DNA from: a virus | Direction: 5' to 3' (one strand) | Virus record (IMG/VR): IMGVR_UViG_3300047318_000332 | Span: 1-24,983 of that record | Length of the DNA: 24,983 nucleotides | Shown: positions 1,552 to 21,473 of the stretch, in pieces | Layout of the letters: every line of letters starts with the position of its first letter | Position numbering within the stretch: position 1 is the first letter of the stretch | Program-made: the position numbers and the translations under genes | Notes under the pieces: generated by a model | What the model was told of the DNA's origin: nothing | Databases searched by the model: none | The model's input: only the letters and a program-made list of their open reading frames with translations

Positions 1552-1559
1552 GGAATCCC

Positions 1560-2751: not shown

Positions 2752-2752
2752 C

Positions 2753-3696: not shown

Positions 3697-3716
3697 CCGG
3701 CATTTTTTTGACCCGA

Positions 3717-3739
3717 TAGGTTATCTCCTAGATAGCCTA
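3717..3739 (+). promoter_or_regulatory. Hairpin in the leader of the major tail protein gene
   Basis: TAGGTTATC (3717-3725) and GATAGCCTA (3731-3739) form a nine-pair stem with one G-U pair and a five-base loop TCCTA. A run of seven T and TTGACC (3703-3713) lie just before it; TTGACC could serve as a -35 box, but no good -10 follows at 16-18 bases. The SD-like GAAAGGA follows before the ATG at 3761. The hairpin may be a 5'-end stabiliser or processing site for the highly expressed tube mRNA. The structure is seen; its function is inference. Confidence 0.4.
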
Positions 3740-3760
3740 CCAACCTGAAAGGACACTACC

Positions 3761-4990: not shown

Positions 4991-5010
4991 ACCGCATCCG
5001 GCCGGGAAAT

Positions 5011-5059
5011 TTGTACGCATCTTTTCCGGCCGCTTGTACGCATTTTGTACGTCTTTTTT
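5011..5059 (+). repeat. Degenerate GTAC/T-tract repeat cluster (array I)
   Basis: The gap between tail tube and chaperone genes holds TTGTACGCAT (5011), TTGTACGCATTTTG (5034) and TTGTACGTCTTTTTT (5045), with a weaker ACGTCTTTTTT from 5061. The G of GTAC falls at 5013, 5036 and 5047, steps of 23 and 11. This is the phase seen in the two stronger arrays at 16129-16225 and 17630-17690. It is AT-richer than the flanking genes. It may be a partition-protein binding site, a promoter upstream element, or both. Confidence 0.5.
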
Positions 5060-5091
5060 AACGTCTTTTTTCAACCACCATGGAGCGCGCA

Positions 5092-5511
5092 ATGACTGCA
5101 TCGACCACCACCAAGCCGGCCACCATTTCCCTCGCCGCACTGGACCTGACGGCCTTGTGTGAGAACGAGTTTGAATTTGAGTACGTGGACCAGGCCGGCA
5201 ACGGCTCGGGCGTGTTCATTACCGTTTTGGGAAGTCAAGCGCCCAAGGTCCAGCAATGGATCAAAAAGCGCCTGAACGCGCGCCGCGCCCAGGAAGCAGT
5301 CCAGGCCAAGCGTGGCAAGGAAGTGGCGCGCACGGTGGAAGACGACGACGAGTTCGGCAACGAAGCCGCCGCGATCCGCATGGTGCGCTGGCGCGGCATC
5401 ACCGAAGACTTCTCTCCCGTCCTGGCCTTGCAGCTGGTGGCGAGCAATTCCGAACTGCGCGACCAAGTGTTCAAGGCATCGAACGACCTGGGCAATTTTA
5501 CGAAGGGCTGA
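5092..5511 (+). CDS. Tail assembly chaperone, short (G-like) product
   Basis: A 139-residue protein starting at the second ATG (5092), which has GGAG six bases upstream; the ATG at 5080 has no such site. It lies between the tail tube and tape measure genes and overlaps a second frame that continues to 5876 without its own good start. This is the lambda G/GT arrangement. The protein is acidic in its middle (DDDEFGNE) and includes VRWRGITEDFSPVLALQLV, similar in type to tail chaperones. The expected role is to keep the tape measure protein soluble and recruit tube subunits. It ends GNFTKG-stop in the frame used by ribosomes that do not shift. Confidence 0.75.
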   Translation: MTASTTTKPATISLAALDLTALCENEFEFEYVDQAGNGSGVFITVLGSQAPKVQQWIKKRLNARRAQEAVQAKRGKEVARTVEDDDEFGNEAAAIRMVRWRGITEDFSPVLALQLVASNSELRDQVFKASNDLGNFTKG

Positions 5512-5876
5512 TCGCAGAACTGCTCGCGTTCGCTGATGTCCAGTTCGCGCTGTCGGCCACCCAGGCAGACGGCGCGAGCCTCAAGCAACACCTGGACATG
5601 GTGGCGCAACAGACCGGCGAAATCCCGCAAGAACTGTTGAAGGCGCAGGAAACACCCTGCCCCGATGCCCTGGCCCATGTGTGGCTGATGTTTCTGGATT
5701 TGCACGCGGCGCGGTCGAGTAACGGCTTCGGCGCGAACCCGATCAGTTTCAGCGAATTGCGCGCCTGGTCGGACATGAACGAACTGGCCGTCACGCCCTA
5801 CGAAATCGGGGCGCTGCGGCAACTGGACGGTGCCTGGATGGCCGCGCAAGCGAAACAGGCGAAGAAGAACAAGTAG
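5499..5876 (+). CDS. Tail assembly chaperone extension (T-like), made by -1 frameshift
   Basis: This is the downstream part of a probable fusion; the complete fusion would span 5092-5876. After the codons AAT TTT at 5494-5499, a -1 shift gives TTT TAC GAA GGG CTG and continues as YEGLIAELLAFADVQFALSAT, which reads naturally after the shorter product. The extension has about 125 residues, is helical, and ends AAQAKQAKKNK just before the tape measure gene. No ATG with an SD lies near 5500; the first internal ATG comes about 30 codons in. The slip sequence C AAT TTT is not a canonical X XXY YYZ heptamer, so the exact site, and even use of an unusual start instead, remain open. In lambda the GT fusion binds the tape measure protein. 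Confidence 0.65.
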   Translation, partial: YEGLIAELLAFADVQFALSATQADGASLKQHLDMVAQQTGEIPQELLKAQETPCPDALAHVWLMFLDLHAARSSNGFGANPISFSELRAWSDMNELAVTPYEIGALRQLDGAWMAAQAKQAKKNK

Positions 5877-5901
5877 CAGGACACACGAAACGAGGTCGCG
5901 C

Positions 5902-8900
5902 ATGGGCAATTCCGTTGAAATCAGCACCCTTGCCCTTGCGGTCGATACGTCCGACCTCAAGAAAGCCGAAACCGCCATGGCGTCGGCCGGCGCTGCCGCC
6001 GACACGCTGGCGGGCAAGGCCAAGAACCTCAACACCGCGTTCACGCAGTTCAATGACGGCCTGACCAGCCATGAGCGCGCCGCCAAGCTGGCCGCCGAAG
6101 CGGATCGCGCGCTGCTGTTGCAGCAACAGGCGCTCGGCAACAACGCTGGCGCGCTCACCGCTGGCCAGGTGCATTTCATGGAAAGCCTCAAGGAACAGGC
6201 GACGGCCGCCGGCAAGACGCGCATTGAACTGTTGCAGCTGCGCGCAGCCGAACTTGGCCTGACCGAAGAAGCCAAGCACATGATCGAACAGATCGACAAG
6301 GCCACGGCAAGCCATCACAAGCTCACCCTCGGAACGGCCGGCACCACGCGCGAACTGATGGTGCTCGGCCACGAGGCCGTCACCGGCAACTTCTCGCGCT
6401 TCGGCTCGTCCCTGATGGTGCTGGCCAACCAGACCGGCATCGTGCAAGTGGCACTGAAAGGCGTCGGCATCGCCCTGCTCGGCATGGGCGCAATCGCTGT
6501 CGCAGCCGGCGCGGCGATTGCCTACGGGTTCCTCAAGGGCCACGAGGAAGTGGTGAAGATGAACAACGCGCTCCTGGTGACGAACAACTACGCGGGCATG
6601 ACGGTGCCGATGATGCACAAGCTGGCGCAGGAAATGGCCAAGACCGGCGAAATGACCATCGGCACGGCCAAGGACATCGTGACCGCCTTCGTCGCCTCGG
6701 GCAACATCAGCGCGGCCACGATGCAGAACATGGCTCGGATGGCGACCAACTACGCCAAGGCCACCGGCCAGGACATCGACACCATCGCGCCCAAGCTGGT
6801 GAAGATGTTTGAAGACCCTGTGAAGGGCGCGAAGGAACTTGATGACCAGATGGGCTTTTTGACCATCGCGGAACTGGAATACATCAAGAGCCTTGAGCGC
6901 CAGGGCGAAAAGCAGGAAGCGGCGCTGTTCCTGTCGAAAAAAGTCGTGGACTTCATGCCCGAGCACATCAAGAGCATCGGTGCGCTGGAACGCGGCTACA
7001 ACACCCTGACCAAACAGGTAGGCGAGTACAAGGACAAGCTGCTGGGCATCGGCCGCCCGCAAAGCATTGACGAGCGCATTGCCGACCTGACGAATACGAC
7101 CCGTTCGGTCGCCGCACCAGGCGGCGGCGTGCGCGAAATCCCGCTCGACAAGGAAACGCTGGAATACAACGCGCGCCAGGTTGCGGGCCTGAAAGTGCTG
7201 GCCGAATGGGAGCGCAAGGCGGCCGAGGCCGAAGGCGACCGCGCCAAGGCGCTGAAAGTGCAGAAGGCCGCGCAGGACGAAGTGGACAAGAGCGCCACCT
7301 ACCATATCCACACCATCATCGACGCCATCGAACTTGCGTCGAAAGCGCCCGACTCGCCCGACAAGACGCGCCGCCTGATCGAACTGCGCAAGCAGCTTGC
7401 CGACGCCAACCGCGCGCTCGGCGCGGAGCAGCGCGCCATGGACCAGGCGGCCATCGCGTCGAACGAAAAAACCAACGAGAGCCGCATCGCCAGTGGACGC
7501 CTGGAAAACGACCTGGCGCTGCGTACCGGCGAGATCAACCGCAAGCTGCACGCCGAGAACGAATTCAACCTGGAACAGTCGGTGCTGACGAGCAAGCGCG
7601 CCGCCGAACAACGCATCCTCGCGCTGGGCGGGCTGACGCGCGCAGAGGCGCAGGCGCACAAGGCGACGATTACCCACCTGAATGAAGAAATTGACCTCGG
7701 CAAGCAACGCTACGACAACAAGGAAGCGGCGCAGTACCTGAGCGACATCGAGCAGGCGATGGGCGCGGTCGCCGCCGCAGGCTTTGCCGAGGGCGCCGCC
7801 CTCGACGCGGCAATCAAGAAACGCAAGCTGTACAACGCCGAAATCGGCAAGACGGTGCAACAGAAAGCGGCCCTGCAAGCGGCCATCGAGCGCGAGGAAA
7901 TCGCCCAACTCGACAGCGACGCGGCGTTCCTGCAAGGGATCATCAACCAGAAGCAGTACGCGCCCGAAATCCTGGCGATCTTCCAGGCGCGCCTGAACGC
8001 GATCCAGAACGAGGCAACCGGGCGGCGCGAACTGCTCAAGCTGGCGAAAGACGGGGCCGAGGCCGAAGGCGTCAACGAGGCGCTCAAAAGCATCGACAAC
8101 GTGGCGCACAGCGTTTTCACCAGCATCTTCAACGGCGGCAAGAGCGCCTTCGACCGGCTGCGCGACACGCTCAAGTCGGGCCTGCTGGACCTGCTATACC
8201 GCATGACGATCAAAAAATGGATCTTCGACATCGGCGCGTCCGTCACCGGGGCCGCGGCGTCGGGCGTGGCCAGCGCCGCCGGCTCGGCTGTCGGCAACGC
8301 GGCAGGATCGGCAGCGGGCAGCGCGGCAGGCTCGTTCGCCGGTTCGGCGGCCCTGGCTGGCATCGGCACTGGCGCGATCCAGACGGCGGGCGCGCTGTTC
8401 GCGGGCGAAATCGGCTTCGGCTCGACGCTCTCGGCGGGTATCTCGGCCATCGGCACCGGCACCATGTCGGGCATCTCGGCGGGCCTGTCGTCGGTGGTCG
8501 GCGTGCTCGGCCCGATTGCGCTCGGTATCGCCGCCGTTTATATGCTGTGGAAAAGCATGGACCATTCCGGCACCCCGCACACGGGCGGCGCGTCGCAGGC
8601 GTCGGCGGCCGGAGTGGTCAACGTCGCGCCCGAATCGCTGCACTTTGAAAAGACGGCGATTGACAGTAACACGCAAAAAATGACGCAAGCCCTGACGCTT
8701 GGCATCGTCAATATTCTCGACAGCACGGCTCTGGCGTTCGGCAAGACGGCGGGCTACACCGCCGCCGCTGCGTTTGCCGACGATTCCTCCGAAGACGGCG
8801 CATGGGGCGGCCTGGTCATTTCCAAGCTCGGCCAGAAGATCATCGACTGGCAGGACACCAAGACCGGCTCCTGGGCGCCGAAGACGTTTGCCGATGGCGA

Positions 8901-10602
8901 GGAAGGCCAGAAACAGTACATGGCCGCCGTCACCTCCTCGGTGCGCAGCGCGCTCGACCAGATCGACTTGCCGGGCTGGGCCAAGACCATGCTGGGCAGC
9001 CTGACCGCCGACGCGAACCTGGACGACATGGCGAAGGTCATCGAGGCGATCAACACCACGCAAGCGGCGCTGGTGGTCATGCGCGACAAGCTGGTGGGCT
9101 TCGCCACCCTCTCCGACGCGGCCATCACTTCCCTGATCGCCAATTCGGGCGGCATCAACGCGCTGGTATCGGCCGCGTCGTCGTACTACGACAACTACTA
9201 CAGCGCCTCCGAGAAAATGGCCGGCGCGACCAAGCACGTTTCCGACGCGCTGGCCGCCGTGGGCGTCGCCATGCCAGCCACCCGCGAAGCGTTCCGCGCC
9301 GAACTGGAACGGCAAATGGCGCTGGGCGAGGCGGCCATGCCGGTCGTCGCCGCCATGCTGCGCGTGCAGGATGCCTTCGCGCAGACCCACGCCGCCGCCG
9401 ACGGCCTGGCGGGCGGCGAATCAAAACTGCTCGATGAACGCAAGAGCTTGCAGGAACAGCTGGACAAGCTGACGCTAACCAGCGCGCAGTTGCGCGCCAA
9501 GGAGCGCCTGACCATCGACGCATCGAACCGCGCCCTGTTCGACCAGGTGAACGCGCGCCAAGACATTTCGGACGCCTATGACCGCGAATCGTCGGCGCTG
9601 CAAACGACGATTGACCGCCTGAAAACCTTCGGCAGCACCATCGCCGGTTTCCTGTCGCAGTTGAACCAGGGCGCGCTCTCGACGCTCACGCCCGAACAGA
9701 AAGACGCCGACGCGCGCGCCACCTACCAGGACTTGCTGGCCAAGGCAAAGGCGGGCGACGAAGCCGCGCAGGGCCAGATCACCAGCGCGGCGCAGAACTA
9801 CCTGACGGCCAACCGCGTCATCAACGCCAGTTCGCCCGAGTACACCGCCGTGTTCAACCAGGTGCAGAAGGACATGCGCGACTTGCTGGCCGCGTCCGGC
9901 GCGCAGCAGAGCGAAGCGGAAAAGAGCCTGGAACAGATGAAGACGCTGGCCGGCGCCCTCGTCAATCTCGACAAGAGCGTGGTGTCGCTGACGGACGCGA
10001 TCAACGCCGCGCACAGCGCCGACGCCGCCGCCGCCGCGCAGGCGGCCATCGAAACAGCCGCCGCCGCTGCGCCGCCGCCCGTTGTCACCATGCCGCCGCC
10101 GGTCGTCATCGTCGGCCAGGCAACGGGCGGCAGCACCTCGGACAGCACGCCGCAGCCAAGCCCGCTGATCGGCTCGACCGTCCTGTACGACCAGCCAACC
10201 AGCGACGGCGGCAGCGGGCGCAACGGGAAGTCGCGCGACGACTGGATGCTCGACGGCTCCTACGCGAGCGGCCTGGCGTCGGTGCCGTTCGATGGCTTCG
10301 TGGGCGAACTGCACAAGGGCGAGGCGGTGGTGGACGCCCCGGCCATGGCCGCGCTCAAGCGGTACTTCGGCGCGGGTGGCGGCCAGGGCGGCAACAGCGC
10401 GGCGCTGGTGGCCGAGATTCGCGCCCTGCGCGCCGAGGTGGCCGCGCTGCGCGCCGACAACGAACGCCAGGCGCTGCGCTCGGACCACACGACGCTGACG
10501 GCCGCCGAGCGTAACGGCGACAAGGTGGCCAAATCGAACGTGGACGCGGTGCGCGCCGCTGAATGGGCGGCGCAACAGGCAGCCAAGGCGGTGATCGTAT
10601 GA
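5902..10602 (+). CDS. Tail tape measure protein
   Basis: At 1566 residues this is the longest gene here. It starts at the ATG with GAGG six bases upstream; the open frame from 5830 overlaps the chaperone and is not needed. The N-terminus (SVEISTLALAVDTSDLKKAETAMASAG) and the stretch LGHEAVTGNFSRFGSSLMVLANQTG match the TMP_2 group of prophage tail tape measure proteins. A membrane-like segment lies at about residues 183-211 and a Gly/Ala-rich hydrophobic region at about 770-886. Much of the rest is coiled coil with alternating charged residues. The C-terminal ASGLASVPFDGFVGELHKGEAVV (about 1453-1476) is typical of this family. It sets tail length and may help DNA cross the inner membrane. It overlaps the next gene by ATGA. 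Confidence 0.93.
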   Translation: MGNSVEISTLALAVDTSDLKKAETAMASAGAAADTLAGKAKNLNTAFTQFNDGLTSHERAAKLAAEADRALLLQQQALGNNAGALTAGQVHFMESLKEQATAAGKTRIELLQLRAAELGLTEEAKHMIEQIDKATASHHKLTLGTAGTTRELMVLGHEAVTGNFSRFGSSLMVLANQTGIVQVALKGVGIALLGMGAIAVAAGAAIAYGFLKGHEEVVKMNNALLVTNNYAGMTVPMMHKLAQEMAKTGEMTIGTAKDIVTAFVASGNISAATMQNMARMATNYAKATGQDIDTIAPKLVKMFEDPVKGAKELDDQMGFLTIAELEYIKSLERQGEKQEAALFLSKKVVDFMPEHIKSIGALERGYNTLTKQVGEYKDKLLGIGRPQSIDERIADLTNTTRSVAAPGGGVREIPLDKETLEYNARQVAGLKVLAEWERKAAEAEGDRAKALKVQKAAQDEVDKSATYHIHTIIDAIELASKAPDSPDKTRRLIELRKQLADANRALGAEQRAMDQAAIASNEKTNESRIASGRLENDLALRTGEINRKLHAENEFNLEQSVLTSKRAAEQRILALGGLTRAEAQAHKATITHLNEEIDLGKQRYDNKEAAQYLSDIEQAMGAVAAAGFAEGAALDAAIKKRKLYNAEIGKTVQQKAALQAAIEREEIAQLDSDAAFLQGIINQKQYAPEILAIFQARLNAIQNEATGRRELLKLAKDGAEAEGVNEALKSIDNVAHSVFTSIFNGGKSAFDRLRDTLKSGLLDLLYRMTIKKWIFDIGASVTGAAASGVASAAGSAVGNAAGSAAGSAAGSFAGSAALAGIGTGAIQTAGALFAGEIGFGSTLSAGISAIGTGTMSGISAGLSSVVGVLGPIALGIAAVYMLWKSMDHSGTPHTGGASQASAAGVVNVAPESLHFEKTAIDSNTQKMTQALTLGIVNILDSTALAFGKTAGYTAAAAFADDSSEDGAWGGLVISKLGQKIIDWQDTKTGSWAPKTFADGEEGQKQYMAAVTSSVRSALDQIDLPGWAKTMLGSLTADANLDDMAKVIEAINTTQAALVVMRDKLVGFATLSDAAITSLIANSGGINALVSAASSYYDNYYSASEKMAGATKHVSDALAAVGVAMPATREAFRAELERQMALGEAAMPVVAAMLRVQDAFAQTHAAADGLAGGESKLLDERKSLQEQLDKLTLTSAQLRAKERLTIDASNRALFDQVNARQDISDAYDRESSALQTTIDRLKTFGSTIAGFLSQLNQGALSTLTPEQKDADARATYQDLLAKAKAGDEAAQGQITSAAQNYLTANRVINASSPEYTAVFNQVQKDMRDLLAASGAQQSEAEKSLEQMKTLAGALVNLDKSVVSLTDAINAAHSADAAAAAQAAIETAAAAAPPPVVTMPPPVVIVGQATGGSTSDSTPQPSPLIGSTVLYDQPTSDGGSGRNGKSRDDWMLDGSYASGLASVPFDGFVGELHKGEAVVDAPAMAALKRYFGAGGGQGGNSAALVAEIRALRAEVAALRADNERQALRSDHTTLTAAERNGDKVAKSNVDAVRAAEWAAQQAAKAVIV

Positions 10603-12281
10603 GCATTTCCGACGCTCAGTACAGCGCCTGGCTGCGCGACCCCACGGCCATTCGCTGCCTGCTCTTTGAGGTCGGCGTGTATTCGGGCGGCTCCGAAATC
10701 ACCCGTTACCTGTCCACCACCGGCTACACGACGGGCGCCGCCGACACGCCCGCGTCCACGACCTACCTGGGCATCGGCACTGGCGGCCTGACCATCACCG
10801 AGTCGGTGTCGCTGACCGGCCAGGCCAGCCTGTCGATTGGCGACATCAAAGTGGCGAACCAGGCCGGCGAGCGCGACAGCTGGCTTGCCGATGTCTGGAC
10901 CAACCGCCCGATCGCCGCGTTTTTGGGCGATGTGCGCTGGCCGCGCGCCGACTTCCGCCCGGTGTTTTCCGGCGTGGTGGCCGACATCGGCAGCGAGGAT
11001 CGCGGCACGCTCAACCTGATCCTGTCGAACAAGCTGCAACGGCTCAATACCGCCGTGTCGGACGTAAAACTCGGCGGCATCGTCAGCTATGCGCAGAGCG
11101 GCACGACTGTGACGGTAACGAAGGCCCGCCATGGCCGCAACGTCGGCTCGCCCGTCGAAGTGCATCCCACTTCCGGCACCGCCGTGGTCGGCGTGTACAC
11201 AATCCTGGCCACGCCGACCGTGGACACGTTCACCTACACGGCCGGCACCAGTCTGACCACCAGCGGGTTGATGACGCTGGGCGGCGTGAACGCCGACAAC
11301 ATCATTCCGCTGGTGTTCGGGGAGTGCCACAACATTACCCCGCTCCTGGTCGATGGCCGCCTGCTGGAATACCAGTGCCACGGCGGGCCGGTACAGGACA
11401 TTTTTGAGGTGCGCGACAACGGCAAGCCGGTCGCCGCCACCGTCACCAACGCGACCGGCACGTTCCGCCTGCTGGCCGCCCCGGCTGGCGCAATCACTGC
11501 CTCGGTGCAGGGCGACACCCCGGCGGGCACCGACTACGCCAACACGGTCGCGCAGCTGGTGCAGCGCATCGTTACCGGCTTCGGCGTCACCGCGTCGCTG
11601 TTTACCAGCGGCGACCTGGACGCGGCGAGCCTGGCCGCATTCGATGCCGCGCACCAGCAGCCGGTCGGCCTGTATCTCACCGACCGCTCCAACGTGCTTG
11701 CCGCATGCCAGCAGCTTGCCGCCACGTTGCAAGCGCAGCTGGTCATGACGCGCGCCGGCCTGTTGCGCCTGGTGCAGATCAGTTTTCCGCCGGCCGGCAC
11801 CCCGACCGTGATCGCGCAGTCGAGCCAGATTGACCGCACCCTGACCATCGTCGCGCGCTCAACGGTGGCCGCCGCCGTGAAGCTCAACTACGTCAAGAAC
11901 TGGACCGTGCAGCCCGGCCTGCAAACGGCCATTCCGGCCGAGCACAAGGAAATGTTCGCCTCCGAATGGTGGACCGTCACCAGCGTGAACGCCGCCGTGG
12001 CCGCTGCCTACAAGCTCAATGCCGAGCCGGTGCCGTCCGACACGCTGCTGCTCACGCGCGAGGACGCCCAGGCCGAGGCGGATCGCCGCCTCGTCATTGC
12101 CAGCCAGGTACGCACGACCTACCGTTTTGAGGGCACGGCGGCCCACATGGAACTTGAACTCGGGCAGGCGGTGACGCTGTTTAGCAACCGCTTCGGCCTG
12201 GCGGGCGGCGCGCTGGGCGTCGTCACCAGCCTGGCACCGGACTGGCAGAACTGCCATGTCACGGTCGAAATCACCGTCTAA
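10599..12281 (+). CDS. Distal tail / baseplate hub-like protein
   Basis: A 560-residue protein whose ATG overlaps the tape measure stop. The N-terminus carries AWLRDPTAIRCLLFEVGVY, then strands leading to WPRADFRPVFSGVVADI and the helix LILSNKLQRLN. A Thr/Val-rich beta segment (about residues 160-225) looks inserted. After it comes IIPLVFGECHNITPLLVD...EYQCHGGPVQDIFEVRDNGKPV, a motif I recognise from siphophage tail-tip proteins placed after the tape measure gene. The C-terminal half resembles hub proteins, ending in a segment VTLFSNRFGLAGGALGVVTSL typical of tail proteins that close the tube. It likely forms the tip platform that carries the fibre encoded next. The exact lambda counterpart cannot be fixed from sequence alone. 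Confidence 0.68.
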   Translation: MSISDAQYSAWLRDPTAIRCLLFEVGVYSGGSEITRYLSTTGYTTGAADTPASTTYLGIGTGGLTITESVSLTGQASLSIGDIKVANQAGERDSWLADVWTNRPIAAFLGDVRWPRADFRPVFSGVVADIGSEDRGTLNLILSNKLQRLNTAVSDVKLGGIVSYAQSGTTVTVTKARHGRNVGSPVEVHPTSGTAVVGVYTILATPTVDTFTYTAGTSLTTSGLMTLGGVNADNIIPLVFGECHNITPLLVDGRLLEYQCHGGPVQDIFEVRDNGKPVAATVTNATGTFRLLAAPAGAITASVQGDTPAGTDYANTVAQLVQRIVTGFGVTASLFTSGDLDAASLAAFDAAHQQPVGLYLTDRSNVLAACQQLAATLQAQLVMTRAGLLRLVQISFPPAGTPTVIAQSSQIDRTLTIVARSTVAAAVKLNYVKNWTVQPGLQTAIPAEHKEMFASEWWTVTSVNAAVAAAYKLNAEPVPSDTLLLTREDAQAEADRRLVIASQVRTTYRFEGTAAHMELELGQAVTLFSNRFGLAGGALGVVTSLAPDWQNCHVTVEITV

Positions 12282-12293
12282 AAAAGGGCCGCC

Positions 12294-14924
12294 ATGACCG
12301 CACCCGCCAACAACCTGTACGCCGACGCCACCGTCATCACGGGACTGACCGGCTCCATCGAGGGAACCTGTGTTGACGCGGAGGTCGAGGACGGCTACCT
12401 GGCCGGCGGCGGTGTGATCGACGGCGCGGCGGTCTGGTACAGCTACACCCCGACCGTGAGCGGCTACATCACCTTTGCGGCGACGACCGACGAAGGCGCT
12501 GGCATTTATGTCAACTACGTGGACCCCTACAAGGGCGACACGATGCTGACGGCGGAATACTGCAACACGCCAAGCGGCATCTACGATTACGCCGCGCCGA
12601 TTGTCGTCGCGCAGGCGGGCCTGACCATCCATGTCGGCGTCAATATCTACCTCGGGCAAGGGCCGTTCACGCTCTCCTGGTCGCTCGAAACGGTGCCGGT
12701 GGTCGATGGCGTCACCGTCACGCCGGGCGTCGGCATCTACGAGATGAACCAGACGCTTTGCTACGTGCCTGCGGTCGATGAAGTGTGGATGCACCTGCAT
12801 CGGTATTCAGCCTACCCCGACGACATGCCGATGTTCGTGCGCTACGCCATGGACGGTTCGATTGCCGGTTACATCAGCAACGGTTCCACCTACGGCGCGT
12901 GGGAGGTGCTGCTGCTCGATCCTTACAGCGGCGACGCCACGCTCTCGCCGCACCTGTCATCGAGTCCCACCGATGCCGAAACGAGCGTGACTTGTTACGC
13001 TGGCCTGACGCCTACGTCGCACTACTCGTTGCCGCACCTGAACAAAGGCGATTGCTGGTCGGGCGTTGACGGCACGCTCTGGAAAAACGCCGGTACTGCC
13101 ACCGGCGGCGCCACCAATGGCACGGTGCTGCAATACGCCCTTGACGCCACGCTGCTGACCACCGTCGCGCTGACCGCGCCGAAGGCGCGCGAAATCACGG
13201 TCGATAGCGACGGCATTCTCTGGCTGTTCACCCCGCTGAACGCGGCCGGCGCCGTTACCCGCGTCGATCCGGTCACGCCGACCGTGACGGTGTACGACCT
13301 GGCCACCACCAGCCCGGCGCGCGCGGTCCAGAATTTTGTTTATGACAGCGACCGCCATAGCCTGTGGGTGCTGCGCCAGGGCACCACCGGCACGGGCGAA
13401 CTGGTCGAGTTCGACATCGCCACCCTGACCGTCACCACCGTCATTGCCGACATCGAGCTTGTGACCTGGTACGGCACCTACGACTTCATCAAGTACGACC
13501 CCTGGCACGGCTACGTGTGGCTCATGAACAGCGCGGCCAGCGCGCTGATGGGCTTTGACTGCGCGAGCGGTACGCTGGCGCAGCGCACCGTGCTGCCGGT
13601 CGATTGGGAATCCGGCCCGATGGCCGTCACGCCCGAGCAGGTCTTTGTGCAGGACGCCGGCTACGGCAGCTTCTTCCGCGTTTCGATGGCGTCGGGCACG
13701 CCGCCAGGGGCGGAACTGGCTGGTGCCGCTACGGCCGAGGCCAGCGCGTCGGGCAGCCTGACGCCTCCGATCACGCTTGCCGGCGCGGCGCTGGCGACGG
13801 CAAGCGCGCATGCATCGCTGCACACCGCGCCGCACTTCGTCAACGACCGCGACAAGCTGCTGCAAGCGACGACGCCGCGTTTTGCCCCCGGCTTCGGTGA
13901 CGCCCTGGTTCTCTCCGCGCCGATCACGCAGTTCCATGTTGCCTCGGGCGGCGCGGCCTCGCCCACCACTATTACCGTCACCGCGACGGCGGTCGGATTC
14001 GACCTGGGCGGGGCGTCGGTGACGTTCGCGGCCGGCGGCCTGCCGCTCACCACCACCGCCACCACCGCCACGCTGGCCTACGCTGACCTGGCTGGGGCCA
14101 CGGTCGCAGTGATCGACGGCACCGTGACGGTCGATGGGGTGCTTTACAGTGGTTCCATCGCGCTTCTTGTCGTCTCGGACGGCAGCGGCGGCGCTGACGG
14201 CACTGATGGCACCGATGGCGTCGATGGCCAGCGCGGCACCGTGCAAGTGGCCTCGTCCACCTACGGCGCCACCTGGAGCGACGCCGACGCTGTGCTGATC
14301 CTGGCGGCGGCCGGCTACGGCTCGCCGGTCAACCGCGACATCGTGACGATGTACAGCGGCAGCGCCTCGGTGTCGAAGTTCTACGATTCCGGCACCTGGT
14401 ACGCGCTCACCGCCTACATCGACGGCAACATGCTCATCACCGGCACGCTCGACGCCAACCGCATCACCGCCGGCACGATCACCACCGACCGCCTCGTAGT
14501 CGGCTCGGTCGGCACCAGCGCGCAGTCGGCTATTACGGTGACCGACATCACCACTACCGGCCCGACCATGCTCACGCTGACGATGACGAACGCCGGAACC
14601 GGCGAGGTCATCGCCATGGTCACTGGCTGGGTCAAGGTGCCTGCCGGGACCGGCAAGGTGCTCGGCGTGTATGGCGACATCACCGTGAACGGCACGGCGA
14701 TCACCACCGGCTACTCGATCTTCAGTTCCACCAGCGACGTGTGCGGCCCATCGCTCAACGGCTGCACCGTGCCGGTTTCCATCGCCGTGCCGGTCACGGT
14801 TGCGGCGGGCAGCAACACGTTCAACTTCGACCTGTCGGCGGTGTACCTCACCAGCGGCACGGCCGTAAGCGCGACCGACTCCTACTTTTGGGGAACGCTC
14901 GGCATCTACGAAATCAAGGTGTAA
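12294..14924 (+). CDS. Tail fibre / tail tip protein with propeller-like and collagen-like parts
   Basis: An 876-residue modular protein. Residues ~1-140 resemble a PPC-type beta domain (AVWYSYTPTVSGYITFAATT). Residues ~145-460 contain repeated ITVDSDGILWLF / FVYDSDRHSLWVLRQG / YDPWHGYVWLMN blades, like an NHL-type beta propeller. Residues ~470-515 hold two alanine-rich units of the kind that fill the gene at position 1. A short collagen-like run (GADGTDGTDGVDGQRG) follows near 640. Then YIDGNMLITGTLDANRITAGTITTDRL, a motif common in host-specificity (lambda J-like, DUF1983-type) C-termini, and a beta-rich end. The protein is probably the receptor-contacting tip or fibre. No chaperone gene follows, and the module mix suggests recombination-driven evolution. 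Confidence 0.78.
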   Translation: MTAPANNLYADATVITGLTGSIEGTCVDAEVEDGYLAGGGVIDGAAVWYSYTPTVSGYITFAATTDEGAGIYVNYVDPYKGDTMLTAEYCNTPSGIYDYAAPIVVAQAGLTIHVGVNIYLGQGPFTLSWSLETVPVVDGVTVTPGVGIYEMNQTLCYVPAVDEVWMHLHRYSAYPDDMPMFVRYAMDGSIAGYISNGSTYGAWEVLLLDPYSGDATLSPHLSSSPTDAETSVTCYAGLTPTSHYSLPHLNKGDCWSGVDGTLWKNAGTATGGATNGTVLQYALDATLLTTVALTAPKAREITVDSDGILWLFTPLNAAGAVTRVDPVTPTVTVYDLATTSPARAVQNFVYDSDRHSLWVLRQGTTGTGELVEFDIATLTVTTVIADIELVTWYGTYDFIKYDPWHGYVWLMNSAASALMGFDCASGTLAQRTVLPVDWESGPMAVTPEQVFVQDAGYGSFFRVSMASGTPPGAELAGAATAEASASGSLTPPITLAGAALATASAHASLHTAPHFVNDRDKLLQATTPRFAPGFGDALVLSAPITQFHVASGGAASPTTITVTATAVGFDLGGASVTFAAGGLPLTTTATTATLAYADLAGATVAVIDGTVTVDGVLYSGSIALLVVSDGSGGADGTDGTDGVDGQRGTVQVASSTYGATWSDADAVLILAAAGYGSPVNRDIVTMYSGSASVSKFYDSGTWYALTAYIDGNMLITGTLDANRITAGTITTDRLVVGSVGTSAQSAITVTDITTTGPTMLTLTMTNAGTGEVIAMVTGWVKVPAGTGKVLGVYGDITVNGTAITTGYSIFSSTSDVCGPSLNGCTVPVSIAVPVTVAAGSNTFNFDLSAVYLTSGTAVSATDSYFWGTLGIYEIKV

Positions 14925-14936
14925 AGGAAAAATAAC

Positions 14937-15767
14937 ATGCCCAACATGCGCATCGTGTCCGACAACGCCCTGGCGCGCGCCGCCAGCTTTACCGCCTCAA
15001 CCACGGTCGGCACGCTTGCGGCATCGAACATGCTGCTCGATGTGAAATCCGCGGTGCATCGCGCCACTGGCACCAGCGTGACCTACACGGCCACCTGGGC
15101 GGCAACGGAAACCCTGGCATGCGTGGCGATCCCGTTTTGCAACCTGTCGCCCACGGCGACCATGCGCGTGCGCATCTACAGCGATACCGCCGGCACAACC
15201 CTGGTGTTCGACAGCACGGCGCTGCCGGCCTGCCCGGCCTCGGCGGTCGTGCTGCGCGGCTGGACGGCGCTGGCGTCCTCGATGGCCTACGCCTACGGCG
15301 GCGGCGTGTATGCGCGCGCCTGGTTCGCCGCCATCGGCTGCCGCTGCCTGGTGGTGGACATTTCGGATGCGTCGAACCTGGCCGGCTTCGTGGAAGCGAG
15401 CCGGATGGTGGCGGGCAATTACTGGTCGCCCTCGGTGAACGCCGACATCGGCGCGCAGCTGCTGTTTGACGACCGTTCGGCGCACGTTCGCTCCGACGCC
15501 GGCGACCTGTTGACCGATGTCGGCCCGCGCATGCGCAAACTGACCCTGAACCTGTCGTACCTGCCGGCGTCAGATCGCACCACGGCGGCCGGCATCTTCC
15601 GCGCGAACGGCATGGGCACGCCGATGCTCGTTTCGGTGTTCCCTGGCGACGCCGATACGGACCTGGAACGCGACTACACGGTGTACGGCAAGTTGTCGGC
15701 CATGAGCGCCTTCACGCTGGCGGCCTGGCCCGCCTACGTGCTCCCCATCGAGATTGAAGAACTGTAG
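14937..15767 (+). CDS. Distal tail structural protein, unknown specific role
   Basis: A 276-residue protein 12 bases after the fibre gene, with AAAGGAAAA before the ATG. It is beta-rich with many Ala and Thr; the first half (VTYTATWAATETLACVAIPF, MRVRIYSDTAGTTLVFDS) reads like a jelly-roll or carbohydrate-binding-module fold, and the second half contains RKLTLNLSYLPASDRTTAAGIF and MGTPMLVSVFPGD. Similar proteins occur next to tail fibre genes in siphophages and are annotated only as tail or minor structural proteins. Position at the end of the tail block supports a distal tail role, perhaps receptor or polysaccharide contact. No enzymatic motif is visible. Confidence 0.6.
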   Translation: MPNMRIVSDNALARAASFTASTTVGTLAASNMLLDVKSAVHRATGTSVTYTATWAATETLACVAIPFCNLSPTATMRVRIYSDTAGTTLVFDSTALPACPASAVVLRGWTALASSMAYAYGGGVYARAWFAAIGCRCLVVDISDASNLAGFVEASRMVAGNYWSPSVNADIGAQLLFDDRSAHVRSDAGDLLTDVGPRMRKLTLNLSYLPASDRTTAAGIFRANGMGTPMLVSVFPGDADTDLERDYTVYGKLSAMSAFTLAAWPAYVLPIEIEEL

Positions 15768-15794
15768 TCCCACCCAAGAGAGAAGGAGAGCGCC

Positions 15795-16103
15795 ATGACC
15801 CAATCCCGCCCCGAACAACGTGTCGTTGACATGCGGATTCCCCTGCACTGGCTGCTGTCGTCGGCCGCCGCCATTTTGCTGACCCTGGCAGCGACGTTGT
15901 GGAACATCGCCGGCCAGAGCAACAAGCTCGACCAGCTGATTATCACCAACGCCAAGATGGAGAAGCGCCTGGACGACCGGGATACCCGCATCGACACCCT
16001 GCGCGACAAGATGTTCACCTACGAACGGAACCTCGACAGCGTGCAGATGCGCCTGGAAGCCCTGGAACGGCGCGCCAGTGAGGTAATGCGCGTCACCCGA
16101 TAG
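15795..16103 (+). CDS. Small membrane protein with coiled coil, lysis-cassette associated
   Basis: A 102-residue protein with AGAAGGAGAG upstream of the ATG. One hydrophobic segment at about residues 18-41 (WLLSSAAAILLTLAATLWNIAG) is followed by a charged coiled coil (KLDQLIITNAKMEKRLDDRDTRIDTL to the end). The topology would be N-in with a long helical domain outside the membrane or the reverse. It is the first gene of the cassette that continues with holin, endolysin and spanins, so it may be a second holin, an antiholin or a membrane protein unrelated to lysis. No family is recognised with certainty. It ends just before the nine-unit repeat array. Confidence 0.65.
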   Translation: MTQSRPEQRVVDMRIPLHWLLSSAAAILLTLAATLWNIAGQSNKLDQLIITNAKMEKRLDDRDTRIDTLRDKMFTYERNLDSVQMRLEALERRASEVMRVTR

Positions 16104-16128
16104 CATCCGTGCGGCCCAAAAAATGCCG

Positions 16129-16225
16129 TACTTTTTCAGTACAAAATTCCGTAATTTTTCACGTTAAAAAAAGCGTACATTTTCCGTACAAATCAGCGTA
16201 AATTTTCGGTACAAAAGGGGGTACA
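16129..16225 (+). repeat. Nine-unit GTAC/T-tract array, 11-12 bp step (array II)
   Basis: Between 16104 and the holin start lie nine units centred on GTAC or a close variant. The G of each core is at 16129, 16140, 16152, 16164, 16176, 16187, 16199, 16210 and 16222, giving steps of 11, 12, 12, 12, 11, 12, 11 and 12. Cores are separated by T or A runs, for example CGTACATTTTCCGTACAAA. Such phasing is typical of DNA bound side by side by ribbon-helix-helix proteins, and a candidate partner is encoded at 18408. The last unit lies inside the translation start region of the holin. Confidence 0.85.
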
Positions 16226-16226
16226 A

Positions 16227-16451
16227 ATGGCACTCATTGACGAATGGCGCGCGGCCTGGAAATTCCTGTCGGTGCAGGCGAACGTGCTCGGCGTGGCGAT
16301 TTCATCGAGCTACGCCGTGATGTACGACCAGCTCAAGGAAACCGTTCCGCCCACGGTGGTCGCCACCATCACCGGCGTGGTGTTCGTGCTCGGCATCATC
16401 GGCCGCCTGACGGTGCAGAAAACCCCCGACGACGGAAAGGACGCGCCATGA
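16227..16451 (+). CDS. Holin-like protein (DUF7940-like)
   Basis: A 74-residue protein with two hydrophobic segments, about residues 14-31 (LSVQANVLGVAISSSYAV) and 44-62 (VVATITGVVFVLGIIGRL), and a polar tail (VQKTPDDGKDAP). This small two-helix layout, an N-terminal DEWRAAWKF motif and the gene directly upstream of the endolysin fit class II holins; related small phage proteins are grouped as DUF7940. It would form the inner-membrane lesion that releases the endolysin. GGGGG in the last array unit (16218-16222) serves as ribosome binding site. The stop overlaps the endolysin start (ATGA). Confidence 0.75.
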   Translation: MALIDEWRAAWKFLSVQANVLGVAISSSYAVMYDQLKETVPPTVVATITGVVFVLGIIGRLTVQKTPDDGKDAP

Positions 16452-16909
16452 TTTCGGCCAACATGCGCGCATTCCTCGACACCATCGCCATGAGCGAACT
16501 CGGCCCGCAACTGCTGGCCGTGTCCGACCGTGGCTACAACGTGTGCGTCGGCTCGACGCCGAAGCGCCCGATCCTGTTTTCCAGCTACGCCACCCACCCG
16601 ATGCTCCGCTGCGCCGCCCTGAATTCGGATGCCGCCGGCCGCTATCAGTTCATGGGCCGCTACTGGCTGCACTACAAGGCCCAGCTGGGCCTGGTGGACT
16701 TCGGCCCGGCCAGCCAGGACCGTTGGGCGATGCAACTGATCCGCGAATGCAAGGCGACCGACGCGGTGGAGAGCGGCCAGATCGACCGCGCCGTGGCGCT
16801 GTGCAAGAGCCGCTGGGCCAGCTTCCCCGGCGCCGGCTATAACCAGCCCGAGCACCGACTGGCGCAGCTGTCCGAATGGTTCGACCAGGCCGGCGGGGTG
16901 ATCGCATGA
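16448..16909 (+). CDS. Endolysin, lambda R-type lytic transglycosylase/lysozyme (GH104)
   Basis: A 153-residue protein very close in layout to lambda R: N-terminal MRAFLDTIAMSELGP with the catalytic Glu at residue 17 (equivalent to lambda E19), then GYNVCVGS, FSSYATHP, the SDAAGRYQFMGRYW motif, LGLVDFGPASQDRWAM and SFPGAGYNQPEHRL near the C-terminus. Lambda R cleaves peptidoglycan as a transglycosylase. There is no signal peptide or SAR helix, so it should accumulate in the cytoplasm and need a holin, which is encoded directly upstream with a four-base overlap. The stop overlaps the Rz start in the same way. Length is normal for the family. Confidence 0.93.
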   Translation: MISANMRAFLDTIAMSELGPQLLAVSDRGYNVCVGSTPKRPILFSSYATHPMLRCAALNSDAAGRYQFMGRYWLHYKAQLGLVDFGPASQDRWAMQLIRECKATDAVESGQIDRAVALCKSRWASFPGAGYNQPEHRLAQLSEWFDQAGGVIA

Positions 16910-17445
16910 TTGCCGGCCTTCTGCTGCGCACGCTGCCATACCTGATCGCGCTGGCCGGGGCGGCCGCCCTGGTGGCCGCCATCCACCATCACGGCTACAT
17001 CGAGGGCGTGGATGCGGAGCGCGCTGTCTCCCTGGCCAAAGCCGCGGAACAGGCCGAGGCGACCCGCCTGGCCGTGATCGCGCGCAACATCGAGAACGCC
17101 GCCACACAAGCCCGATTCGACAAAGCCAACCTTGAGGACGCTATCCGCCATGATGAAGCCAACCATGCTGTTGAAGTTGAGCGCGACCGTCTGCGCGCTG
17201 ATGTGCGCCGCGCTGGCGGGTTGCGCATCCCCGCCAACTGTCCCGCCCCTGGTGGAACTGCCGCCACCGCCGAAGCGCGCCTTGACGGCGGATTTGCTGC
17301 GCCCACTGCCGGAACCGTCGCACTTCCAGAACAAATTGAGAGCGATCTTCTCAATCTCGCCGCAGAAGCCGACGCCGTGACGGAACAGGCGCGCGCCATA
17401 CAGCGCCGCCTGATCGAAGACCACAAGGACGCGACCGTGCCATGA
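16906..17445 (+). CDS. Rz: Inner-membrane spanin subunit Rz
   Basis: A 179-residue protein coupled to the endolysin by ATGA. A single N-terminal membrane helix (about residues 3-26, GLLLRTLPYLIALAGAAALVAAI) is followed by a long charged helical region (RAVSLAKAAEQAEATRLAVIARNIENAATQ...), the usual i-spanin topology with a periplasmic coiled coil. Similar proteins are sometimes grouped as DUF2514. Together with Rz1, encoded inside it, it would fuse inner and outer membranes as the last lysis step. The position after holin and endolysin strongly supports the call. Confidence 0.85.
   Translation: MIAGLLLRTLPYLIALAGAAALVAAIHHHGYIEGVDAERAVSLAKAAEQAEATRLAVIARNIENAATQARFDKANLEDAIRHDEANHAVEVERDRLRADVRRAGGLRIPANCPAPGGTAATAEARLDGGFAAPTAGTVALPEQIESDLLNLAAEADAVTEQARAIQRRLIEDHKDATVP
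17150..17380 (+). CDS. Rz1: Outer-membrane spanin lipoprotein Rz1, embedded in Rz
   Basis: A 76-residue ORF in the +1 frame fully inside Rz. It starts MMKPTMLLKLSATVCALMCAALAGC, a short basic lipoprotein signal with lipobox LAGC; Cys25 would be lipidated. The mature part is proline-rich (PPTVPPLVELPPPPKR), as in lambda Rz1. An embedded proline-rich lipoprotein is diagnostic of the Rz/Rz1 pair. The start at 17150 is chosen because it directly precedes the basic signal-peptide start; GAGG lies 12 bases upstream. The frame is open up to a TTG at 17132, which is less likely. Confidence 0.85.
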   Translation: MMKPTMLLKLSATVCALMCAALAGCASPPTVPPLVELPPPPKRALTADLLRPLPEPSHFQNKLRAIFSISPQKPTP

Positions 17446-17633
17446 AACCCATCGGCAAGCTGTTGTTCGGGGAAGGCGGCCTGGGCAAAGTCGGCGTGGC
17501 GGCGCGCAATCGCCGCCAGCGCCGGCCCGACGCCGAGCCGCAGGACTTCCCCAAGAAGCCGCGCCTGAAAAAGCGCGAGGGCGCCCGCCACAAGGGACGT
17601 TTGTCCGATTTTGAACCGGACAACGATCCGTAA
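17442..17633 (+). CDS. Small basic protein of unknown function
   Basis: A 63-residue protein starting at an ATG that overlaps the Rz stop. It has a glycine-rich N-terminus (LLFGEGGLGKVGVAARNRR) and a highly basic centre (RRQRRPDAEP...KKPRLKKREGARHKGR), ending acidic (DFEPDNDP). No family is recognised. Its stop codon TAA lies inside the first unit of the repeat array that precedes parA. It is the last gene of the lysis operon by position, and could be a small DNA- or RNA-binding protein, but nothing beyond charge supports this. Confidence 0.6.
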   Translation: MKPIGKLLFGEGGLGKVGVAARNRRQRRPDAEPQDFPKKPRLKKREGARHKGRLSDFEPDNDP

Positions 17634-17690
17634 ATTTTCCGTGCCATTGGCCGTACATTTTCCGTAACAAACAGCGTACAAATTCTGTTC
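17630..17690 (+). repeat. Six-unit GTAC/T-tract array upstream of parA (array III)
   Basis: Six units with core G at 17630, 17641, 17653, 17664, 17676 and 17687, steps 11, 12, 11, 12, 11. Cores read GTAA, GTGC, GTAC, GTAA, GTAC and GTTC, with spacers such as ATTTTCC and AACAAACAGC. The motif and period match array II. The location, 86 bases before the parA start, suits a partition site that also acts as operator. The binding assignment is inference. Confidence 0.8.
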
Positions 17691-17719
17691 ACTTGAGCGG
17701 AAGAAAATAGTAAAAAGGA

Positions 17720-17736
17720 TGGCATTTCCGATGCCA
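17720..17736 (+). promoter_or_regulatory. Inverted repeat and possible -10 box before parA
   Basis: TGGCAT and ATGCCA flank TTCCG (17720-17736), a perfect six-base inverted repeat. Seven bases later TATGCT (17743-17748) could be a -10 box; no clear -35 is seen at the matching distance. The position suggests an operator for the parA promoter, but this is inference from layout. Confidence 0.35.
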
Positions 17737-18787: not shown

Positions 18788-18976
18788 ATGGCACGGCCTC
18801 AGGGCACCTACAGGATCATCGAAGACGGGCGCGCGATCGAGTGCCAGGGTTGCGGCCGGATTTCGTACAGCGCCGGCGATGTGCGCGAGAAATATTGCTC
18901 CAATTGCCACGAATTTCTCGCGCCGCCGCCGGTTGCACCGGCTCCCCCGCCTCCGGCGGGGAGAGGCGACAAGTGA
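18788..18976 (+). CDS. Small zinc-ribbon protein
   Basis: A 62-residue protein two bases after the RHH gene. Two CxxC pairs (C19-C22 in ECQGCG and C37-C40 in YCSNC) form a four-cysteine zinc ribbon, followed by a proline-rich tail (APPPVAPAPPPPAG). The role is unknown; small zinc ribbons in plasmid and phage operons often bind nucleic acid or proteins. Its stop TGA lies inside the first copy of the duplicated hairpin at 18971. Close spacing suggests it belongs to the parA operon. Confidence 0.65.
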   Translation: MARPQGTYRIIEDGRAIECQGCGRISYSAGDVREKYCSNCHEFLAPPPVAPAPPPPAGRGDK

Positions 18977-19034
18977 TGGGCTTGCGCCCATAGGGAAAGG
19001 GAGGGCAATAAGTGATGGGCTGCGCCCATAGGGG
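18971..19034 (+). repeat. Two direct copies of a hairpin-forming 25-bp element
   Basis: AAGTGATGGGC followed by GCGCCCATAGGG occurs at 18971-18995 and again at 19010-19034. Each copy contains ATGGGC and GCCCAT arms, with loop TTGC in the first and TGC in the second. The one-base loop difference between otherwise matching copies suggests that the stem is what is kept. The pair opens the long gene-free region that leads to the replication gene. Confidence 0.75.
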
Positions 19035-19126: not shown

Positions 19127-19398
19127 GGCCGCTAAAGCGAAAGACCGGCCCGCGGGCGCGCGACCCAGGGGTTTTCCGGCATCACGGCGAGCCACCAGAG
19201 CACGGTCTGACCTACGCCGGGGCAACCCGGCACACAGGCGCGGCGGTTTGCGCAGCAAATCGGGGCGCAATATTCGTTGACGCCTGGGCGGATCGGACAG
19301 TCAAGGCAGAAGGTGCGCGTGCCGCGACACAGATCAAGAAGGGCGGCAAAAAAACATTCGCATAATCAACAACTTGCGACCCCCACCCAGGAAAGCAT

Positions 19399-19420
19399 CA
19401 TTTCCGCACCCCCGGAAATG
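19399..19420 (+). repeat. CACCCC-loop hairpin A
   Basis: An eight-pair perfect stem (CATTTCCG with CGGAAATG) around the loop CACCCC at 19407-19412. It is the first of four hairpins with a shared loop placed on both sides of the replication gene. Confidence 0.75.
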
Positions 19421-19423
19421 GTA

Positions 19424-19441
19424 TTTCCGCACCCCCGGAAA
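19424..19441 (+). repeat. CACCCC-loop hairpin B
   Basis: TTTCCG-CACCCC-CGGAAA, a six-pair stem, three bases after hairpin A. It repeats the core of A as a direct copy with a 24-25 bp step. Confidence 0.75.
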
Positions 19442-19522
19442 CAGCTGACTTCCAGGGGTTGCCTTTTCCCAACTGTTGACGCATACTGGTTTGCATATTT
19501 TCTACAACGGATTACCCAAAAT

Positions 19523-20143
19523 ATGCAAGACGATGCCCGCAAGCTCGGCACGCCGCACCAGGCCGCCGCCGACACGTTCGTGATGACCAACCGCGTCGCC
19601 CACGAAGCATGGGGCGAATTGACCATTGCCAAGCCGCGCGCGGCGGCGCTGCTGCATGTCTTGACCGCGAAGATGGGCCACCAGAATGCCCTGGTGGTGA
19701 GCCAGAAGACTTTGGCGAAAATGCTCGGCGTAACCGATAGAACCGTGCGAACGGCCGTCAAAGACCTGGTGGATGGTAAATGGATTACGACCGTTGCGAT
19801 TAACGGACCAGGTACGGTTTGCGCGTATGTCGTTAATGACCAGGTGGTTTGGGGACAGTCGCGCGACCAGCTGCATTTGTCGATCTTTTCGGCCGCAGTT
19901 ATTGCCGACAAAGCCGACCAAGACCCCAATCAGGAGGCGTTTGAATTGCGCAAGATTCCCACGCTTTATTCTAACGAGCGCCAATTGCCGACTGGCCCAG
20001 GACTGGACCCGCCAAGCCAGCCGGCCATCGGCGGCCTGGAACCTGATTTGCCGGCATTGTCGGCCCAGCGCGCCGCCGAGCCGCCGATGGTGGACATCGA
20101 GCTAGAGGATGCGGTGAGCAAGATCGAGCGCGGCGGCGACTGA
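19523..20143 (+). CDS. RepL-like plasmid replication initiator
   Basis: A 206-residue protein. MTNRVAHEAWGELT, a helix ending KMGHQNALVV, the HTH segment SQKTLAKMLGVTDRTVRTAVKDLVDGKWI (about 59-88), NGPGTVCAYVVNDQVVWGQSRDQL and IFSAAVIADKADQD form a pattern I recognise from replication proteins of small proteobacterial plasmids, related to RepL. It would bind the origin and start replication. The frame is open to 19277, but the extra 82 residues are basic, lack similarity and are encoded by hairpin DNA, so the ATG at 19523 is preferred although its SD is weak. The C-terminal 60 residues are Pro-rich. Together with ParA this supports a plasmid-like prophage. A lytic replication role is also possible. 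Confidence 0.82.
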   Translation: MQDDARKLGTPHQAAADTFVMTNRVAHEAWGELTIAKPRAAALLHVLTAKMGHQNALVVSQKTLAKMLGVTDRTVRTAVKDLVDGKWITTVAINGPGTVCAYVVNDQVVWGQSRDQLHLSIFSAAVIADKADQDPNQEAFELRKIPTLYSNERQLPTGPGLDPPSQPAIGGLEPDLPALSAQRAAEPPMVDIELEDAVSKIERGGD

Positions 20144-20463: not shown

Positions 20464-20802
20464 ATGAAAACCGCAGCCGAGATTAGAAGCGAGATAGCCG
20501 CCCTGTTAAACCAGATCGAGCTATTGAAGAAGGAATTGACGAAGGCCGAGATAAACGACAAGAAAGAAGCGCGCGCGGCGATCCTGGCAATTCTGGCGCA
20601 GCACGGCTTATCGCCGGAAGCAGTCTTCTCGGCGCTGCCGACGCCGGCCACGCGCGCACCAGCTGCGACGCCGCAAGTGCATTACAGAGGACCGAACGGC
20701 CAATTATGGATGGGTCGCGGCCCGCATCCGGCCTGGCTCAAGGAATCGGGCAAGGATAAGAAGGAATTTGAGCAGCCTGGCCCGATGCCAAGGGCCGCCT
20801 GA
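20464..20802 (+). CDS. H-NS family DNA-binding protein
   Basis: A 112-residue protein with CGGAGA upstream. Residues 1-45 form a charged helical/coiled-coil oligomerisation region (AAEIRSEIAALLNQIELLKKELTKAEI). After a Pro/Ala linker, residues 73-93 carry the H-NS C-terminal DNA-binding motif: HYRGPNGQLWMGRGPHPAWL, corresponding to the Y-x-x-x-x-G-x-x-W-x-G-R-G-x-x-P-x-W consensus of Histone_HNS proteins common in Burkholderiales. Such proteins bind AT-rich DNA and silence transcription. Carried by a phage, it could shape silencing of the prophage or of host genes, or counter host H-NS. It leads a short operon with two small genes and lies next to the most AT-rich DNA of the window. Confidence 0.85.
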   Translation: MKTAAEIRSEIAALLNQIELLKKELTKAEINDKKEARAAILAILAQHGLSPEAVFSALPTPATRAPAATPQVHYRGPNGQLWMGRGPHPAWLKESGKDKKEFEQPGPMPRAA

Positions 20803-21215: not shown

Positions 21216-21473
21216 TTACGCGGCGGCCAGTTCCTCGCGCTCGACATCGTGCAGCACCGCGCGCAGCGCCGGGATCGACAGGCCGGTGGTGTCGTGCATC
21301 AGCAGCAGCGTGTCGCCGCTGACCTGGTTGTAACCGTGGCGCATCTTGGAAATCTGCGGCGCGGTCATGCCCAGGGCTTTCGACAGGGCGGCATCGTTCT
21401 TGAGGCCCAGGTGGGCGATCAGGAAATCCAGCAGCTTCACAGGGTCTTGTGGTGGACGGTGGCGGTTGGTCAT
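21216..21473 (-). CDS. Small XRE-like HTH protein
   Basis: An 85-residue protein, leftward, with AAGGAG eight bases before the ATG. DAALSKALGMTAPQISKMRHGYNQVSGDTLLLMHDTTGLSIPALRAVL matches a helix-turn-helix of the XRE/Cro class (helices around residues 27-45), although short. It is the last gene of the leftward group. It might regulate the early operon, but a location at the operon's far end is also common for small phage HTH proteins of unknown job. Confidence 0.75.
   Translation of the reverse strand: MTNRHRPPQDPVKLLDFLIAHLGLKNDAALSKALGMTAPQISKMRHGYNQVSGDTLLLMHDTTGLSIPALRAVLHDVEREELAAA

Follow-up and report, generated by a model that had tools for sequence, protein, structure and literature searches.

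Phased GTAC-type repeat arrays as candidate binding sites of a ParG-like ribbon-helix-helix protein in a phage-plasmid-like viral fragment

The stretch of DNA analyzed here (the window) comprises the entire IMG/VR record IMGVR_UViG_3300047318_000332, a fragment of 24,983 bases with a GC content of approximately 65%. Its genes are arranged in the order tail cluster, lysis genes, parA, a gene encoding a ribbon-helix-helix (RHH) protein and a rep-like gene (Table 1). The tail cluster is opened by an alanine-rich repetitive frame of 505 aa (34-1551), and in the lysis region an Rz1-like lipoprotein frame (17132-17380) is nested within an Rz-like spanin gene (16906-17445). The rep-like product exceeded the Pfam cutoffs for HTH_36 and RepL and matched PHROG 270 (replication initiation) with an E value of 1.6e-5. 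Two sets of repeats accompany this gene, a 39-bp repeat present twice between a small zinc-ribbon-like ORF and rep (18959-19033) and iteron-like repeats (GGAAATGGTATTTCCGCACCCCC), each some 23 bp long, where the rep-like ORF starts (19356-19445), which are a candidate origin and share the period, but not the sequence, of the arrays described below. The phage also encodes an H-NS C-terminal-like protein (20464-20802), which scored slightly under the Pfam cutoff. No integrase was recognized among the listed ORFs of this 25-kb fragment. A phage-plasmid would be expected to combine replication and partition genes with phage structural and lysis genes and to lack an integrase; the window contains the rep-like gene, parA and the lysis genes. 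The phage probably persists as a plasmid.

Table 1. Coordinates of the arrays and of the genes discussed with them
Feature	Position	Strand	Remarks
Array 3	5009..5064	-	Gap flanked by ORFs 3761-4990 and 5080-5511 of the tail cluster
Array 1	16126..16226	+	Nine cores spaced 11/12 bp apart, making four whole 23-bp units and a half-unit
Holin	16227..16451	+	PHROG 1356 holin, E 2.7e-19; directly 3' of array 1
Array 2	17628..17697	+	Six cores; roughly 80 bp 5' of parA
parA, short type Ib (ParF-like) ATPase, 211 aa	17776..18411	+	NF041546, PHROG 164, ParF 4dzz
ParG-like ribbon-helix-helix protein, 125 aa	18408..18785	+	Candidate array-binding protein; 4-bp overlap with parA
Replication-initiator-like protein	19277..20143	+	Start codon uncertain

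Judged by their sequences, ParA and the RHH protein are a ParF/ParG-type (type Ib) pair. ParA scored above the cutoff of NCBIfam NF041546, matched PHROG 164, carries a deviant Walker A motif (KGGVGKTT) and has no N-terminal HTH domain, as is characteristic of type Ib. Family profiles matched ParF (4dzz, E 2e-41) and ParG (1p94, E 3e-9), respectively, bearing out the earlier note on this DNA, which had proposed a type Ib-like ParA and an RHH protein. A Pfam scan with the single RHH protein gave no match, while alignment with 13 downstream partners of related ParAs covered, besides the RHH region, a basic motif in the N-terminal part; its N-terminal arm is unusually long and exceeds those of the compared partners. 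Both RHH helices were modelled by AlphaFold2 at a pLDDT of about 90. Foldseek with the monomer model returned only a weak match to Arc, unsurprisingly for a fold whose ribbon is completed only on dimerization. Searches with the RHH protein retrieved no close relative from phage or plasmid collections and nothing from viral contigs, the search for Rep in viral contigs likewise found nothing, and the best ParA matches in genome contigs reached 37% identity or less.

Array 1 fills the gap before the holin gene, with its last core positioned between the purine-rich, RBS-like run and the ATG of that gene. Its cores, which are of the types GTAC, GTAA and GTTA, start at 16128, 16139, 16151, 16163, 16175, 16186, 16198, 16209 and 16221, i.e. 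in steps of 11, 12, 12, 12, 11, 12, 11 and 12 bp with one departure from strict alternation. The cores of array 2 start at 17630, 17641, 17653, 17664, 17676 and 17687 and alternate strictly (11, 12, 11, 12, 11); those at 17641 (GTGC) and 17687 (GTTC) are weak, and the first shares bases with the stop codon that ends ORF 17442-17633. The earlier note had reported these nine and six cores, with array 2 correctly placed and array 1 one base too high. An extension of array 2 to 17699 and 17710 was left out on account of poor cores. A GGCAT-TTCCG-ATGCC dyad (17722-17736) between array 2 and parA is a possible additional operator. Scans for promoters and terminators in the arrays gave nothing above chance, and no sigma-70-like promoter was found in them.

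Since the core pattern was picked after viewing the sequence, shuffles, lag tests and cross-prediction were combined, with more weight given to the pattern-free tests. Of 5000 dinucleotide-shuffled versions of this gap, in which composition is preserved, none contained nine chained GT[AT][CA] cores at 11/12 bp as array 1 does (maximum 5), and the strict chain of four cores in array 2 was likewise reached in 0/5000. Autocorrelation, for which no core has to be chosen, was highest at a lag of 23, with z 8.0 for array 1 and z 5.7 for array 2, the latter being a phased array upstream of parA as is typical of type Ib systems. Together with the shuffles, these peaks confirmed the nine plus six phased cores. 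Tandem Repeats Finder reported 4.2 copies of 23 bp for array 1. Given the lag-23 peaks in both arrays, the repeat unit is better read as 23 bp (11+12) with two half-units, GTAC-ATTTTCC and GTAC-AAATCAGC, each composed of GTAC or a near variant, four A/T bases and 3-4 further bases; this periodicity had escaped the earlier note.

Both of the arrays it had described are thus real, and a scan of the whole window with a matrix built solely from array 1 revealed a third one (array 3) that it had missed, inverted and located in the tail cluster (5013-5062). The five best sites outside array 1 consisted of three array 2 units (scores 16.3-16.5) and two minus-strand units at 5008-5018 and 5042-5052, while a lower-scoring minus-strand unit at 5054 reads ACGTTAAAAAA, the same as the unit at 16163. 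The cores of array 3 lie on the minus strand at 5059, 5047, 5036 and 5013 (steps 12, 11 and 23). Autocorrelation in this gap peaked at lag 23 as well (z 5.2), the matrix scores were reached in only 0.05-0.2% of shuffles of the same gap (P 0.0005-0.002), and five control gaps scanned with the array 1 matrix contained nothing comparable. The chain test was weak for array 3 alone, and its support comes from the matrix and lag-23 tests. Arrays 1-3 and the repeats before rep gave the four strongest lag-23 signals of any segment in the window. An origin by chance, or as AT-rich filler of low complexity, to which the degenerate units and the post hoc selection of cores might point, can be given almost no weight in view of the absence of comparable chains from 5000 shuffles, the lag-23 autocorrelation in three separate gaps and the cross-prediction by the matrix.

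The arrays are AT-rich within DNA of 65% GC, with T-tracts and A-tracts alternating. Such islands could also serve a nucleoid-type protein, for example the H-NS-like product encoded nearby whose C-terminal match fell just below cutoff, with the phase resulting from A-tract curvature. We consider this very unlikely, because the GTAC core and the 23-bp periodicity exceed what AT content explains in composition-preserving shuffles and because other AT-rich gaps are without the motif.

In 54 non-redundant relatives, drawn from plasmids, phages and IMG/VR, we surveyed the 150 bp that precede parA. Pooled autocorrelation in these relatives was strong at lag 8 (z 17.0), lag 16 (z 12.7) and lag 24 (z 9.0), as opposed to z 0.5 at lag 23 and -0.2 at lag 11. 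Conversely, the 8-bp phase was absent before parA of the window (z -0.6 at lag 8). This phase, shared by nearly all the relatives, is a subfamily trait rather than a definition of type Ib, as omega uses 7 bp. A phased array before parA is the family rule and is therefore expected at that place, while the 11/12 pitch is the window system's own, just as had been supposed from the window itself. Relatives that keep the parA pair do not share the exact 11-12 bp phase, but they do share a phased array with a related core: their 8-bp-phased tetramers include CAAA, TACA, GTAC and CGTA, the letters of the window's cores, and phased GTAC occurred in 7 pairs versus 0.03 expected. By sequence comparison, the half-unit of the window can be read as the 8-bp unit of the relatives plus 3-4 bases.

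A second copy of the sequence upstream of parA was present elsewhere in 14 of 47 relatives (about 30%) compared to 1 of 188 shuffled controls. In phiHAP-1 (L140), units of GTAC followed by four A/T bases recur every 8 bp upstream of parA and again around 12640-12690, in a gap at a distance of 2.6 kb. Second 8-bp-phased arrays of ParA-RHH phages, phiHAP-1-like and others, were located at L140:12640-12690, L131:4520-4560, L104:3020-3065, L142:3835-3880 and L154:3585-3635, where they occupy gaps or the vicinity of gene starts. In ParA-RHH phages, dispersed parS seems to be common, and the survey suggests the same frequency of about 30% for second parS-like arrays in viral contigs with ParA-RHH pairs.

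Among known systems, phiHAP-1 and VP882, both linear plasmid prophages, resemble the window in their ParA-RHH pair and in GTAC plus A/T units before parA, and phiHAP-1 has its second array in a gap elsewhere, as the window does. On the other hand, these are protelomerase phages with an 8-bp phase, and their ParA is only about 32% identical. The partition sites of N15 are likewise scattered through its phage-plasmid genome, a dispersed centromere reportedly described by Grigoriev and Lobocka in 2001, but SopB is an HTH ParB acting on inverted repeats, unlike the situation in the window. The closest precedents for several separate blocks are pSM19035, whose centromere consists of three parS blocks (PMC5016525), and RedRock with two parS arrays of 8-bp repeats. 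Like the window, the delta-omega system of pSM19035 combines an RHH protein with three separate parS arrays, and omega is also a transcriptional repressor (PMC5016525, PMC9499535); it differs in its 7-bp heptads, its separate par promoters and in being a plasmid rather than a phage. The mycobacteriophages RedRock and Miko form extrachromosomal prophages with two or three separate direct-repeat parS arrays (PMC7157519), but their repeats are of 8 bp, their arrays lie near the par/rep region and they belong to another phage and host group. With these examples of multiple parS, three separate blocks are not unprecedented.

In TP228, the centromere parH precedes the operon and is composed of degenerate tetramer boxes separated by AT-rich spacers (PMC7308502). 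The window shares with ParF-ParG-parH the short ParF-like ParA, the ParG-like RHH protein encoded just downstream and repeats built, here, of GTAC and an A/T tract. It differs from TP228 in its core, in the 11/12 (23) bp phase as opposed to 8 bp in relatives, in an RHH protein of 125 aa with a long N-terminal arm and in two extra, distant arrays, one of them inverted. The earlier note had compared the arrays to R1 parC, where an RHH protein acts on 11-bp repeats; in pJIR4165, similarly, ParR_B binds 8-bp repeats separated by 3 bp, also a period of approximately 11 bp (PMC9426499), and this 8+3 layout is comparable to the half-unit of the window (8-bp unit plus 3-4 bases). Both of these are type II systems with an actin-like ParM motor, whereas the motor in the window is a Walker ParA, and the window is not a member of this type. 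The apt comparison is with type Ib centromeres, here of 8 bp. The interpretation given in the earlier note was supported in part: a centromere or operator of the RHH protein is the likeliest reading, in view of the general occurrence of a phased array before parA in the family, often with a second copy elsewhere, and of the GTAC-A/T core in relatives such as phiHAP-1.

We regard the arrays as candidate binding sites of the ParG-like RHH protein on a phage-plasmid, serving segregation and repression of parA, and assign this reading a probability of about 0.72. An RHH dimer would occupy each core (GTAC or near) together with its A/T tract, successive dimers would form a row on the array, and DNA coated in this way would be captured by nucleoid-bound ParF-like ParA and thereby segregated. 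Array 2 would double as operator of the parA-rhh operon, while arrays 1 and 3 would represent further parS blocks placed between genes of the late region, with a possible additional role in repressing the holin and a tail gene in the prophage. Since array 1 reaches the holin start codon, RHH binding at this location could repress lysis in the prophage. The arrays, their common motif, the gene families, the phased arrays generally found before parA in relatives and the second copies in many of these were observed, and on this basis RHH binding, segregation, repression and a plasmid lifestyle are predicted. Four contiguous repeats are enough for full ParA activation in pSM19035 (PMC9499535), and by that measure arrays 1 and 2 are long enough.

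What speaks against binding by the RHH protein is that the 8-bp phase marking the sites of the family is missing in the window, that two of the three arrays are remote from the par operon and precede phage genes, as would be expected of operators for another regulator, that no second genome with the 23-bp array came to light in the searches described below, and that the RHH protein has no close relative in the phage or plasmid collections. Another regulator, for example the Cro/C1-like HTH protein encoded at 21216-21473 or an unseen late regulator, might coordinate tail, lysis and par genes, with the partition sites located elsewhere. In line with this, all three arrays occupy gaps directly before a gene, array 1 even up to a start codon, and arrays 1 and 3 are at least 1.5 kb from the par genes. 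We nevertheless consider another regulator unlikely, as no array was found near the HTH gene or in other tested gaps, the arrays are without a detectable sigma-70-like promoter, their number, A/T spacing and core match type Ib centromere arrays, and second arrays at dispersed positions occur commonly across the ParA-RHH family.

A more speculative proposal, which we put forward tentatively, is that the RHH protein uses the three arrays of alternating 11/12-bp (23-bp) repeats in two ways, as a dispersed centromere and to repress the lysis cassette and a tail gene during lysogeny. If true, one protein would be shared by segregation and the lytic decision, the arrays before lysis and tail genes linking plasmid segregation to lytic-gene control, and its stretched phase would represent a so far undescribed segrosome geometry of type Ib. 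In the type Ib centromeres compared here, RHH dimers coat repeats of 7 or 8 bp; a natural system with the same core logic but a pitch longer by 3-4 bp would test to what extent dimer-dimer contact, rather than DNA recognition, determines segrosome geometry, and if the gap is spanned by the long N-terminal arm.

In other genomes, the strict exact array pattern had 0 matches in IMG/VR, and neither pattern searches in IMG/VR nor the DNA of tail-module relatives yielded a second genome with a 23-bp array. The 20 matches to a 23-bp pattern were chance-like, in AT-rich DNA, and were discarded. One tail-module relative was 83% identical across a 560-aa marker protein. ParA was detected in 0 of 23 tail-module relatives, the records of which may be fragments, and arrays of at least five cores were absent from their examined DNA; in one of them (L015) an integrase-like ORF is found downstream of the lysis region, in the place taken by par and rep in the window. 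We have moderate confidence that the arrays and the par genes arrived together, as this distribution would suggest.

A CGTACAAA-chain pattern had 30 matches in IMG/VR, mostly AT-rich or short tandem CGTACAAA repeats. The location of tandem CGTACAAA-like repeats next to tyrosine-integrase-like ORFs in two viral contigs (L056 and L063), as well as the period of 23 shared with the repeats before rep, would fit arm-type sites of a recombinase or replication iterons unrelated to partition. For the arrays of the window this is highly improbable: the listed ORFs include no recognized integrase, three arrays spread across 12 kb with one at parA are unlike an attachment site, and the repeats near rep differ in sequence. 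As for the CGTACAAA-chain matches themselves, some adjoin integrases; those at L056:133-161 and L063:5025-5053, beside or at the start of the integrase-like ORFs, are possibly arm-type sites, and long tandem CGTACAAA arrays occur in unrelated AT-rich viral contigs (L058:45-74 and L060:6270-6340).
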